Both the position numbers and the translations under genes were made by a program. From Desulfonispora thiosulfatigenes DSM 11270 (lineage in GTDB: Bacteria > Bacillota > Peptococcia > Peptococcales > Desulfonisporaceae): DNA of 64,000 bases. The stretch lies in assembly GCF_900176035.1 (NCBI RefSeq), contig NZ_FWWT01000014.1, positions 1-64,000 of the forward strand, read 5' to 3'. The notes under the pieces were generated by a model. It did no database searches, was not told the DNA's origin, and worked only from the letters and a program-made list of their open reading frames with translations. Below, in pieces: positions 10,665-17,025 of the stretch (its first letter is position 1; every line of letters starts with the position of its first letter).

Positions 10665-11969
<1,305 letters not shown>

Positions 11970-12011: not shown

Positions 12012-13592
12012 TTACAGGCAAACATAGCGAACGTCAAAGATACCTTCTGCTGTACACATAGCCTCTAAAGCTTCGGTTGGAACAGAGTGATCAATACTAA
12101 TAATCATGATTGCTACCCCACCAATTTCTTTTCTTCCTACCTGCATTCCAGCAACGTTTACATCGTATTTTCCTAAGATATTACCAATATGACCAATCAT
12201 ACCTGGTTTGTCATTATGTGGAACGATTAACATATGTTTAGTAGGAGTAGTATCCATTGAGTAATTATCTAATTGTACAAGCTTTGCTTCCCCATTACTA
12301 AAGATAGTACCTGCTAAATTATGAACTACCCCGCTACCTTCAACTTCTAAAGTAATTAAGTTTGCATAGTTCTTTAATGATTCTGTTTTAATTTCTTCTA
12401 CTTTAATTCCTCTATTTTTAGCCACAATAGGTGCATTTACATAGTTTACAGAATCAGCTAGTACTGGTCTTAATAAACCTTTTAAAATAGTATTTGTTAA
12501 AGTTGTTAAATCATACTTAGCTAAATTACCATTATAGTTAATTTTGATTTTTTCAATAGGTTTGTCCATTATTTGCGCGATGAATTTACCCAAAGTTTCT
12601 GAAAGACCAATATAAGGTCCTAATTCATTAATTAATTCTTGGCTAATGCTTGGAATATTAACAGCATTTTTAACTGGTTCACCTTTTAATACTTTTAAGA
12701 CTTCTTCAGCTACGTCTTTAGCTACTGAAAATTGCGCTTCTTCAGTAGAAGCACCTAAATGTGGAGTAGCTATTACTTCTGGTAATTCTAATAATGGATT
12801 ATCAATTGCTGGCTCTTTTAAAAATACGTCGATAGCGGCACCTTTTACTTTGCCTGCTTTAATTGCATCATAAAGAGCAGGTTCATCAATAATTCCACCA
12901 CGAGCACAGTTTAATATTCTTACGCCATCTTTCATCATTGCAATTGTCTCAGCATTAATCATACCCATAGTTTCTTCAGTTTTTGGTAAATGAACGGTAA
13001 TAAAATCACTTGCTGCAAATAATTCTTTTAAATCCATTACCTCTATATCTAATTCCACAGATCTTTCTTTATTAACATAAGGATCATATCCTACTACATT
13101 CATTTGAAAAGCTTTAGCTCTTTGAGCAACTTGACGACCAATTTTACCCAAACCTACTACACCTAATGTTTTATTTCTAAGTTCAACCCCAGTAAATGCT
13201 TTTCTATCCCATACCTTTTCTTGTAGTTTAAAATAAGCTTGTGGGATATTACGAGCTAGGGCAAGCATCATTCCTATAGTATGCTCAGTCGCGGCAATTG
13301 TATTACCATCTGGAGCATTTACAACTACTATTCCCTTTAAGGTAGCAGCATCTAAATCAATATTATCTACCCCTACCCCTGCTCTACCGATTACTTTTAA
13401 ATTAGTAGCACTATCAATAATTGCTTTAGTTATTTTCGTTGCACTTCTTACTAAAATTGCATCATATTCTGGTGCTATTGCGATTATCTCTTCTTCAGTA
13501 CTTTTATATTTATGCACAATCTCCATGGTAGGATCTTCATATAGTGCCTCTAAACCTTCTTGTTCAATTGGATCACATACTAATACTCTCAT
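12012..13592 (-). CDS. serA: D-3-phosphoglycerate dehydrogenase
   Basis: 526 aa, the long form: an NAD-binding catalytic core (1-315), an allosteric substrate-binding-type domain (~320-450) and a C-terminal ACT domain (~455-526) that usually binds serine. It oxidises 3-phosphoglycerate to 3-phosphohydroxypyruvate, the first step of serine synthesis. Visible residues: G147-G149-G152 of the dinucleotide fold, catalytic R231, E260 and H278 in TPHLGAST. The ATG follows the aminotransferase TAA directly, with AAAGGGGG inside the upstream gene, so translation is probably coupled. Feedback by serine is inferred from the ACT domain. Confidence 0.97.
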   Translation of the reverse strand: MRVLVCDPIEQEGLEALYEDPTMEIVHKYKSTEEEIIAIAPEYDAILVRSATKITKAIIDSATNLKVIGRAGVGVDNIDLDAATLKGIVVVNAPDGNTIAATEHTIGMMLALARNIPQAYFKLQEKVWDRKAFTGVELRNKTLGVVGLGKIGRQVAQRAKAFQMNVVGYDPYVNKERSVELDIEVMDLKELFAASDFITVHLPKTEETMGMINAETIAMMKDGVRILNCARGGIIDEPALYDAIKAGKVKGAAIDVFLKEPAIDNPLLELPEVIATPHLGASTEEAQFSVAKDVAEEVLKVLKGEPVKNAVNIPSISQELINELGPYIGLSETLGKFIAQIMDKPIEKIKINYNGNLAKYDLTTLTNTILKGLLRPVLADSVNYVNAPIVAKNRGIKVEEIKTESLKNYANLITLEVEGSGVVHNLAGTIFSNGEAKLVQLDNYSMDTTPTKHMLIVPHNDKPGMIGHIGNILGKYDVNVAGMQVGRKEIGGVAIMIISIDHSVPTEALEAMCTAEGIFDVRYVCL

Positions 13593-14753
13593 TTACATTT
13601 CCCCCTTTAAATTAAGTATAACCTCTTGAGCTGCCTTTACGCCTTGGCCTAACTCTAATTTGTATCCTAATTTATATAAAGCCATTTCTAAATCAGCTAT
13701 AACTGTTAATAAATCAGTTTCTTGCACATATCCCATATGACCTATACGGAATATTTTCCCTTTCAACTCGTCTTGTCCACCTGCAAGTAAAACATTAAAT
13801 TCATTTAGCATAATATTATTAATGTCTTTCCACGCAATATTTTCAGGAACCATTACTGCTGTTACTCCTGGAGAAGCACTTTGTTCATCTTTTACTAAAA
13901 CATCTAAGCCCATAGCCTTTACAGCTTCTCTAATTATTTTTTTAAACTTTAATTGTTGCTTGAATTTTGATTCTAAACCTTGTTCTAAAATAATATCTAA
14001 GGCCTCTTTTAATCCTAAAATTAAATTAGTTGCTGGAGTAAATGGTGTTGTATCCTGGGCATAATTCTTTTTAGCAGCACGTAAATCAAAATAAAAGTTA
14101 AAGCTCGTGCAATTTTCATTTACTTTCCATGCTTTTTCACTAACAGTTATAAATGCAAGTCCTGGAGGAAGCATAAAAGCTTTTTGACTACCTGCAACAA
14201 CTACATCAGCACCTATTTCATCTACTGGTAAATCTGCAACCGCCATTCCAGAAATACTATCCACAATTAACAGTGCTTCATGATCACCCATTGCTTGTTT
14301 AATTGCTTTAACATTATTTACAACTGCAGTTGAAGTTTCATTATGCTGTACAAAAACTGCTTTAATGTCCGGATTTTTAGCTAACATATTTTTAACGTCT
14401 TCAGGATTTGCAGATGTTCCTGCTTCATAATCTACTCTAATTACTTCAGCGCCTACTCTTTGATTAATCTTAACAAATCTATCTCCAAATTTACCATTAA
14501 CCAAAACTAAGACCTTATCATCACGATTAATAAAATTAACTACTGCTGCTTCCATAGCTCCAGAACCAGATGAGGTTAAGATATAAACATCTTGCTCAGT
14601 TTGAAAAACCTTTTTTAAGTTATCAGCAACATCCTTGATAATTGCACTAAACTCCTTTGATCTATGTCCCATACTTGGAGCAGACATTGCCCGTAAAACT
14701 CTTGGCGGAACCATTGTTGGACCAGGAATTAATAATAATTGCTTTTCATACAT
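13593..14753 (-). CDS. Class V PLP aminotransferase (serine-pathway aminotransferase)
   Basis: 386 aa of the alanine-glyoxylate/serine-pyruvate aminotransferase family. The PLP lysine is K191 in GSQKAFMLPPGLAF, with the cofactor aspartate in IVDSISG. Annotations of this family as 'soluble hydrogenase subunit' are historical and not supported here. Because it directly precedes serA behind a serine T-box, it probably supplies the phosphoserine aminotransferase step in place of SerC; a serine-glyoxylate or serine-pyruvate reaction is the alternative. No serB-like phosphatase is adjacent. First gene of the operon. Confidence 0.88.
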   Translation of the reverse strand: MYEKQLLLIPGPTMVPPRVLRAMSAPSMGHRSKEFSAIIKDVADNLKKVFQTEQDVYILTSSGSGAMEAAVVNFINRDDKVLVLVNGKFGDRFVKINQRVGAEVIRVDYEAGTSANPEDVKNMLAKNPDIKAVFVQHNETSTAVVNNVKAIKQAMGDHEALLIVDSISGMAVADLPVDEIGADVVVAGSQKAFMLPPGLAFITVSEKAWKVNENCTSFNFYFDLRAAKKNYAQDTTPFTPATNLILGLKEALDIILEQGLESKFKQQLKFKKIIREAVKAMGLDVLVKDEQSASPGVTAVMVPENIAWKDINNIMLNEFNVLLAGGQDELKGKIFRIGHMGYVQETDLLTVIADLEMALYKLGYKLELGQGVKAAQEVILNLKGEM

Positions 14754-14842: not shown

Positions 14843-15095
14843 AAAAAAACCCGTCCCAAAAAAAATAGGGACGAGTTATATACCCGCGTTGCCACCCTGA
14901 TTAAATAATAGACATAGGTCTACTACTCCTCTCAGCTACACGATAACGGTCATGTAATCCGGTTGTATTCATCATACTCCACTCCAGGGCGGAAATTCCT
15001 TAAAATCCTAATTATTGGTTCGCACCATCCACCAATTCTCTGAAAAAGGTTTTTTAAGTACTTGTTCCCCTTCACCGTGTTTACTTATTTAGCTT
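14843..15095 (-). promoter_or_regulatory. Serine-type T-box riboswitch leader
   Basis: The minus strand carries the T-box sequence AGGGTGGCAACGCGGG (14898-14883), which pairs with the uncharged tRNA acceptor end. It is followed by the terminator CTCGTCCC/GGGACGGG (14850-14874) and seven T (14849-14843). Stem I has the AGTA and GGTGCGAACC motifs. The probable specifier is TCC (Ser) in AATTTCCGCC, followed by a purine as expected; TTC (Phe) in the overlapping register is less likely and conflicts with the downstream serine genes. Uncharged tRNA-Ser should switch on the aminotransferase-serA-serS operon. Confidence 0.93.
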
Positions 15096-15131
15096 AAAAG
15101 GATTTTACTATATATTTCTTGATGTTGTCAA
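15095..15131 (-). promoter_or_regulatory. Promoter of the serine operon
   Basis: Minus-strand perfect TTGACA (15131-15126), an 18-nt spacer and TAAAAT (15107-15102). The start of transcription near 15095 places the whole T-box leader in the transcript. Confidence 0.8.
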
Positions 15132-15151: not shown

Positions 15152-15715
15152 TTAATAGCTATCTTTTATCATGTTTAGAAAATAACGATAAAATGTTTCT
15201 TCGTTTAAGGGAAAAAAAGAACAAGCTAGAAAATTACCTTGCCTTACCATAATAATCTTATCTTCCGTAGTACATAAAATACCCACATTAGGACTTAGTT
15301 CTTGCACAACAGGAGCATTGATAAATTTGGCTAAAAAAGGTTTATATCCAAGGGCACATATTTTTAATAATTTACTAAATTCTTTTCTTTTATAAAAAAA
15401 CCCATTTTTTCTTACTTTTATATCCATGAAGCCCAAGGAAAATTCTTTGCTATTACTTATTTCTCGAGCTAAAATTAGCATACCAGCTCCTATACCTAAA
15501 ATAGGTAAATCTTGTTTAGCCTTTTCATTTATTTTTTCTATAAGACCCTTTCTTTTTATAAATCTACTTAGAAAAACATTATCTTCCCCTACTATTATTA
15601 AACCTTGTATTTTCTCAAAATCAAGTGGATCTGATATTTTTAATATATTTCCCCCTAAATTTTCTATTAACTTTAAATCTACATAATGGAAATCACCTAT
15701 TACTCCAATTATCAT
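15152..15715 (-). CDS. PdxT-like glutaminase homologue lacking the catalytic residues (predicted pseudoenzyme)
   Basis: 187 aa that align end to end with PdxT, the glutaminase subunit of PLP synthase: GVIG..., GLI, LGIGAGMLILAREI, LGFMDIKVRKNGF, INAPVV and RQGNFLACSFFP all match in register. The catalytic machinery is gone: the nucleophile Cys of GTCAG is Gly (G76 in GIGAG), the HPE His and Glu are F168 and L170, and the PGGES oxyanion loop is VGEDN. It therefore should not hydrolyse glutamine. The fold seems kept, suggesting a binding or scaffold role. No pdxS is nearby. The ATG at 15715 is preferred over an upstream TTG because AGGA then has suitable spacing. Confidence 0.82.
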   Translation of the reverse strand: MIIGVIGDFHYVDLKLIENLGGNILKISDPLDFEKIQGLIIVGEDNVFLSRFIKRKGLIEKINEKAKQDLPILGIGAGMLILAREISNSKEFSLGFMDIKVRKNGFFYKRKEFSKLLKICALGYKPFLAKFINAPVVQELSPNVGILCTTEDKIIMVRQGNFLACSFFPLNEETFYRYFLNMIKDSY

Positions 15716-15787
15716 TTTTATCAATCCTAATTAGCATAATATTGGAAATTTGTTTATATATTATATTAATATTTTCTATAAAGTTTA

Positions 15788-15823
15788 CAAAAAAAAGAAG
15801 ATAATCATTAGAGATTATCTTCT
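15788..15823 (-). terminator. Intrinsic terminator of ackA
   Basis: AGAAGATAATC (15796-15806) pairs perfectly with 15813-15823 around a 6-nt loop. It is followed on the minus strand by eight T. It lies nine bases after the ackA stop codon and separates ackA from the PdxT-like gene. Confidence 0.93.
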
Positions 15824-15831
15824 TTCAATAA

Positions 15832-17025
15832 TTATTTTGTAAGTTCTAAAGTATCACGAGCAATTACTATTTCTTCATTTGTTGGAATTACAAAAGTACG
15901 AACTCTAGCTCTTGCTTTAGATACGTCTTTTTCTTTTCCACGCATATTATTTTCTTCTTCATCCACTTCAATACCGAAGAATTCTAATCCTTTACAAATG
16001 CTTGCGCGCATTCCAGGAGCATTTTCTCCTACGCCTGCAGTAAATACAACCGCGTCAACTCCGCCAATTGCACCAATATATGCACCTATGTATTTTCTTA
16101 CTACATAAGTAAAGTGATCTAAAGCAAGCTGTGCACGATGATTTCCTTCTTCTGCTGCTTTTTCAATATCTCTAAAGTCACTACTTACTCCAGAAATACC
16201 TAATACACCTGATTTTTTATTTAAAATTTCTAAAGCTTGGTCTATGTTGATATCTTCTTTACCCATTAATACTTGGATAACTGCCGGGTCAATATCTCCA
16301 GAACGAGTACCCATAGTTAAACCTTCTAATGGAGTAATACCCATGCTTGTTTCTATACATTTACCATTTTTAATTGCAGCTAGACTAGCACCATTACCTA
16401 AATGGCAAGAAACAATATTTACTTCTTCAACATTTTTTCCTAACATAAATGCTGCTCTTTCAGTGATATATTTATGAGAAGTACCATGGAAACCATATTT
16501 ACGAATTTTATATTTTTCATAATATTCATATGGGATACTATAAATATAAGCATGTTCAGGAATAGTTTGGTGAAAAGCTGTATCAAATGTAGCTACTTGA
16601 GGTACATTTGGCATAATATTTTGGCAAGATTTAATTCCCATAATATTTGCTGGCATATGTAAAGGTCCTAAATCTATTAATTCTTCAATTGTTTTCATAG
16701 TTTCGTCAGTAATTAATACTGATTTATCAAAGTATTCTCCACCATGTAATACACGATGACCTACTGCATCAATTTCATCCATGCTTTTTACAACGCCATG
16801 TTTTTCATCTACTAAAGCATCTAAAACTAATTTAATAGCTACTTCATGGTTTTCCATTTTTTGCTCTACAATAAATTTATCTTTTCCCTCAGGTTTATGG
16901 GTTAAGATTGATCCATCCATACCAATTCTTTCTATAAGTCCAGAAGCTAAAACGCTCTCATCAACCATATTAATGAGTTGGTATTTTAAGGAAGAACTAC
17001 CACAGTTTATAACAAAGACTTTCAT
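15832..17025 (-). CDS. ackA: Acetate kinase
   Basis: 397 aa, full length. It interconverts acetyl phosphate plus ADP with acetate plus ATP, a main ATP-yielding step in anaerobic fermentation. The N-terminal [15 protein letters not shown] and the signature HRVLHGG and [10 protein letters not shown] are present, as is the C-terminal TAGVGENA. The ATG follows AGGGGG. No phosphotransacetylase gene is adjacent, so pta must lie elsewhere. It has its own terminator. Confidence 0.97.

Follow-up and report, generated by a model that had tools for sequence, protein, structure and literature searches.

What is retained in a PdxT homologue that stands without pdxS and has lost its active site? The question is raised by a gene in the window, by which we mean the whole 64,000-nt stretch of DNA analyzed here, for which a preliminary description proposed a full-length PdxT homologue with every catalytic position replaced and kept as a constrained pseudoenzyme. 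The coordinates given there were right, and the strand, which it omitted, is the minus strand (Table 1); the plus strand at the same place is full of stop codons. An alternative TTG start is possible 9 nt upstream, at position 15724.

Table 1. Features of the pseudo-PdxT gene and its surroundings in the window
Feature	Coordinates	Strand	Remarks
Pseudo-PdxT ORF	15155–15715 (stop codon to 15152)	−	187 aa
Former oxyanion/glutamine loop VGEDN, residues 42–46	15578–15592	−	alignment against PGGES
Former nucleophile elbow GIGAG, residues 74–78	15482–15496	−	alignment against GTCAG
Conserved motif PNVGILC, residues 142–148	15272–15292	−	alignment
Conserved motif RQGNFLAC, residues 158–165	15221–15244	−	alignment; turn before the strand of the former catalytic His
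Former His-Glu site FFP, residues 167–169	15209–15217	−	alignment against FHPEL
ackA, acetate kinase	15832–17025	−	fills the inferred pdxS slot of canonical relatives
Intrinsic-terminator-like hairpin after ackA	15793–15826	−	
Promoter-like TTGACA-18-TAAAAT	15102–15131	−	for the downstream serine operon; 11/12 consensus matches
T-box leader separating the pseudo-PdxT gene from the serine operon	14864–15084	−	RF00230, 123 bits
Class V aminotransferase (serine operon)	13593–14753	−	
serA-type phosphoglycerate dehydrogenase	12012–13592	−	named from sequence
serS, seryl-tRNA synthetase	10665–11963	−	named from sequence; tRNA-Ser genes follow

Family, fold, and active site of the window protein

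The window protein scored 106 bits against the Pfam SNO profile (PF01174; cutoff 27) and 118 bits against the NCBI PdxT equivalog TIGR03800 (cutoff 105.6), and its nearest solved relatives were PdxT structures (2iss PdxT, E-value 5e−29). An AlphaFold model built with 15 natural sequences had a mean pLDDT of 95.1 and a pTM of 0.91; its best PDB matches were all PdxT (top TM 0.91–0.93), with a TM of 0.92 to B. subtilis PdxT (2nv2). The profile search and structure prediction proposed in the preliminary description both gave PdxT, and profile scores, fold match, and PDB matches agree on a full-length link. The protein belongs to the PdxT/SNO family by descent, and another best-matching family is excluded by the Pfam, TIGR03800, and 2iss matches and by the PDB matches of the model. 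The PHROG match of the protein was an unnamed viral family, which says nothing about its function.

The alignment with canonical PdxT showed how thoroughly the active site has changed. The nucleophile elbow GTCAG has become GIGAG, with Cys replaced by G76; FHPEL has become FFP--, with His replaced by F168, Glu absent, and L following; and the oxyanion loop PGGES has become VGEDN. The RNxxGxQ segment reads RKNGFFYK and the FIRAP segment FINAP. Thirty-two columns are identical in all 25 canonical rows and correspond to catalytic, glutamine-binding, and PdxS-facing positions; 15 of them are kept by the window protein, and the inactive rows keep only 5–24. The glutamine-binding and PdxS-contact residues are also gone from the aligned window protein. 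For this protein, then, it is true that every catalytic position was replaced, Cys, His, Glu, and the PGGES loop all being changed. Judged from its sequence, it is without the residues needed for glutaminase activity and is predicted to be non-catalytic.

Inactive relatives and the PLP synthase of their genomes

Homologues were sought in 60 relatives, the whole class, named genomes, and 299 genomes of the phylum. A contig scan with the single protein recovered no relatives; they were recovered with an alignment as the query. The search yielded 21 PdxT homologues whose active site is incomplete. Eighteen belong to the window's class, among them the MAGs Peptococcaceae bacterium M1_7_4, Clostridiaceae bacterium BRH_c20a, and HGW-Firmicutes-12; the other three (G082, G121, and G332) come from a different order of the phylum. 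The frame is intact in all 21 genomes, none of which has a complete triad, and the 20 other genomes rule out sequencing error or recent decay in a single one. The gene has long persisted in several groups of anaerobic bacteria. Several genomes from the same order lack it, and it is therefore dispensable.

Across the group, the loss of the active site recurs; the same residues are not lost everywhere, the relatives having lost different members of the triad. The Cys is retained in two inactive relatives (G037 and G033), His together with Glu in two others (G006 and G013), and Glu in most members of one inactive family. Because Cys is kept in some and His-Glu in others, the common ancestor had both, unless residues were regained; under the same proviso, the final inactivations would be separate events. 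In a tree built from all columns, 17 inactive rows fell on one side of a branch (support 96/90), and with the active-site columns removed, the data neither established nor excluded a single origin (p-AU 0.39). In two other genomes (G331 and G127; loci L153 and L155), a canonical-looking PdxT was matched as two pieces within one long frame, which suggests an insertion near residue 125.

The retention of Cys or His-Glu in some members, together with the retained pocket fold, might be taken to mean that the old pocket has acquired another catalytic activity or senses a ligand such as serine, glutamine, or a nucleotide. A new pocket shared by the group should, however, show conserved residues, and the pocket residues vary freely, so that we consider this quite improbable.

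As the preliminary description stated, the gene stands alone: no pdxS adjoins it in the window. The genome check proposed there for a true pdxS and pdxT located a canonical pair on another contig of the same genome (C5, 66.8–68.2 kb), in which PdxT has an intact active site and all 32 of the 32 canonical-invariant columns; the window ORF is therefore not the PLP-synthase glutaminase of this cell. Of the 18 class genomes that carry the gene, five have PdxS (G000, which is this genome, G006, G033, G037, and G044). Twelve gave no PdxS match at all, G001 gave only a doubtful weak one, and PdxS was likewise not found in G082 and G121, the two genomes of the second group that were searched. Among the genomes without PdxS, G013, G010, and G007 are 100%, 99%, and 98% complete, so its absence is not merely due to missing sequence. 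The PdxJ route was found in none of 46 class genomes, which rules it out as an alternative source of PLP in the PdxS-less genomes. One further genome contains a PdxS (G004:C4:128939-129544) and no PdxT or pseudo-PdxT that we could find.

With no clear PdxS in most of the genomes that carry the gene, PLP synthase cannot be what the retained function depends on. The same distribution weighs against continued binding to PdxS, in which the protein would serve as a regulatory or blocking subunit of a PLP synthase encoded elsewhere in the genome. Such a role would suit the five genomes in which PdxS is present, and it has parallels: inactive PdxT mutants, B. subtilis H170N and S. aureus H165N, bind PdxS more stably (PMC11237949), and PDX1.2, a plant PdxS pseudoenzyme cited in PMC6522883, provides a precedent. 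However, clear PdxS is missing from most genomes with the gene, and the window protein has lost the columns of the PdxS-contact residues E14 and E47 (approximate numbering), which are identical in every canonical row, making PdxS binding the least probable of the roles considered here. The glutamine or PLP-synthase-like partner suggested in the preliminary description is unlikely on similar grounds, namely the lost binding and contact residues and the lack of clear PdxS in most genomes.

Gene order and transcription at the locus

The order gyrB-gyrA-ackA-gene-aminotransferase-serA-serS is shared by the window, G006, G013, G033, and G037. It recurs without the aminotransferase in G011, and two contigs cover part of it, that of G044 starting at ackA and that of G032 ending in serA. 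In the canonical relatives (L050–L054, L063, and G048), gyrB-gyrA are followed by a pdxS-sized gap and then by pdxT and serS, and in L061 an aminotransferase and serA lie between a canonical pdxT and serS. The general Firmicute arrangement places pdxS before pdxT. From that arrangement and the size of the gap, we infer that pdxS occupies it in these relatives too. The placement beside the serine aminotransferase operon noted in the preliminary description is the ancestral gyrA-pdxS-pdxT-serS synteny and not a new link to a PLP-dependent enzyme. The inactive genes usually occupy this ancestral place, now devoid of pdxS.

Elsewhere in the group, serS is the neighbor that persists most often. Family f2 has lost the flanking genes, but the gene and serS are still adjacent in eight genomes; in G082 and G121, the gene starts 2 nt past the gyrA ORF and serS comes next. 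Overall, serS lies directly downstream in 11 of the 21 cases and within four genes in 18 of the 21. The linkage is not universal, being missing in G007 and in G001, where the pseudo-PdxT gene directly follows dnaA (L100:7972-10182). Family f2 also has a small gene in divergent orientation to pseudo-PdxT, including at loci in which serS is not a neighbor (L102:8701-9204, L096:7711-8226, and matching places in L095, L097–L099, and L101); one copy gave a weak DUF697 match and another gave none.

The region contains two terminator-like sites, where 0.3 would be expected. The terminator after ackA on one side and the strong promoter-like site and T-box on the other separate the window gene from both neighbors, so that it is probably a transcription unit of its own. 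Co-transcription with ackA is unlikely in the window because of the terminator between the two genes. Control of the pseudo-PdxT gene by the T-box was also rejected: the T-box lies downstream, behind its own promoter-like site, and therefore controls the serine operon and not the pseudo-PdxT gene. The T-box has the same position in the other loci of this type in the class. Where the window has one T-box ahead of the serine operon, G037, G044, and G033 have a tandem pair (L038:10581-11205, L040:2060-2611, and L042:13192-13667).

Selection and the conserved C-terminal patch

In the least saturated pairs of family f2, to which the estimate applies because dS is saturated in many other pairs, dN was ~0.3 and dS ~1.5–1.8, giving a dN/dS of ~0.17–0.2, compared with ~0.03 for serS. 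Family f2 is therefore under purifying selection, which is weak relative to that on the neighboring serS; the gene evolves fast, with a dN up to ~30 times that of serS. Where it can be measured, the dN/dS proposed as a check in the preliminary description is clearly below 1.

The constraint is concentrated near the C terminus. Among the structural motifs listed in the preliminary description, RQGNFLACSF is strongly conserved, as is PNVGILC shortly ahead of it, whereas NAPVV and GLI are conserved only partly across the group. In the window protein, a patch comprising PNVGIL and RQGNFL is kept at 12 of 12 positions, compared with 51 of 148 in the rest (P = 7e−6), and each inactive row keeps 8–12 of the 12 patch positions, a higher share than in its remaining sequence (P of 0.0023 or lower); these P values are optimistic, the patch having been picked after the alignment was viewed, and the rows share ancestry and are not independent. 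In an out-of-sample test on the later-found trio of the G082 group, the patch was kept at 9 of 12 positions (P = 0.0009–0.002). RQG is invariant in all inactive rows. The codons of the invariant residues differ at their third positions, so the constraint acts on the protein, and a DNA element behind the conservation of the motif is ruled out by this synonymous variation. A Cys after both motifs (GILC and LAC; 15221–15292 in the window) is common to most inactive members.

Fast evolution, the loss of different catalytic residues in different genomes, the absence from some relatives, and a GC content of 27%, compared with 33% for the neighbors, would all be expected of a slowly decaying pdxT relic, kept by chance at a stable place near the origin and constrained only against misfolding. 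Such a relic would hardly leave intact frames in 21 genomes whose synonymous divergence is saturated, a dN/dS of ~0.2, an invariant RQG and a patch better kept than the remainder in every inactive row, or a gene that survives where the surrounding synteny is broken, and we regard it as unlikely. The preference for a constrained pseudoenzyme over simple decay in the preliminary description is borne out by the intact frames, the dN/dS below 1, and the selectively kept motif.

In the model, the old His site comes after three consecutive strands, 145–150, 153–159, and 162–165. If this is the PdxT meander, the topology would put the PN and QGN turns at the sheet end remote from the former active site. 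The PdxS-contact residues of S. aureus PdxT (E14, E47, Y58, R106, E112, and E125; PMC11237949) fall outside the patch stretch by approximate numbering. The patch also occurs in the canonical PdxT of the same locus (L050–L054, L061, L063, and G048) and could therefore be a folding requirement of the lineage, so that it may reflect lineage-specific fold stability instead of a binding site; against this, there are many other canonical PdxTs that lack it and still fold.

Our main reading, to which we assign a probability of roughly 0.6, is that pseudo-PdxT is a non-catalytic, PdxT-derived binding protein that acts through the PNVGIL/RQGNFL face. Its ancestor would have been a PdxT standing in a gyrA-pdxS-pdxT-serS cluster. 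The pdxS gene would then have been lost at the locus, with ackA now in its slot, and PLP synthesis would have been taken over by another pdxS-pdxT pair or replaced by uptake. The orphaned PdxT could thereby have lost catalysis while keeping its fold, and would have been retained for something else that uses the patch. We infer that the patch most likely binds a partner and that this binding is the selected function. As a weak guess, the partner would be encoded at the locus, with seryl-tRNA synthetase as the first candidate because serS is the neighbor kept most often, in a linkage that is ancestral. It is also conceivable, though rather doubtful, that a second role besides glutaminase, exerted at the same face and acting, for example, on SerRS or serine metabolism, goes back to PdxT of the gyrA-pdxS-pdxT-serS lineage, and that the pseudoenzymes are what remained once the enzyme function was unneeded.

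If the main reading is true, it shows that a glutaminase from a two-part enzyme can persist after its synthase is lost and be retained for another use, in separate groups. Several members, including the window protein, score above the TIGR03800 cutoff and would be called active PdxT, a misannotation that distorts predictions of the vitamin B6 pathway and may explain some of the "PdxT only" genomes discussed below. No PdxT pseudoenzyme family was described in the literature searched, which is no proof that none has been reported.

Compared with PdxT itself (Pdx2, YaaE), the window protein shares full-length homology, the fold, and the ancestral place next to serS, but is without the Cys-His-Glu triad, the oxyanion loop, the glutamine- and PdxS-contact residues, and an adjoining pdxS. 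The known pseudoenzyme of the PLP synthase system, as cited in PMC6522883, is Arabidopsis PDX1.2, likewise an inactive paralogue derived from this system and kept by selection. PDX1.2, however, is a PdxS, not a PdxT, and works in the synthase complex, whereas most genomes here have no clear PdxS. Finally, 32 genomes with a PdxT homologue and no PdxS have been described, and whether they make PLP was left open by the authors (PMC9997740). Most of the genomes found here resemble these "PdxT only" genomes in having a PdxT homologue without a clear PdxS, but their PdxT homologues have no intact active site, so that at least this kind should not supply ammonia.
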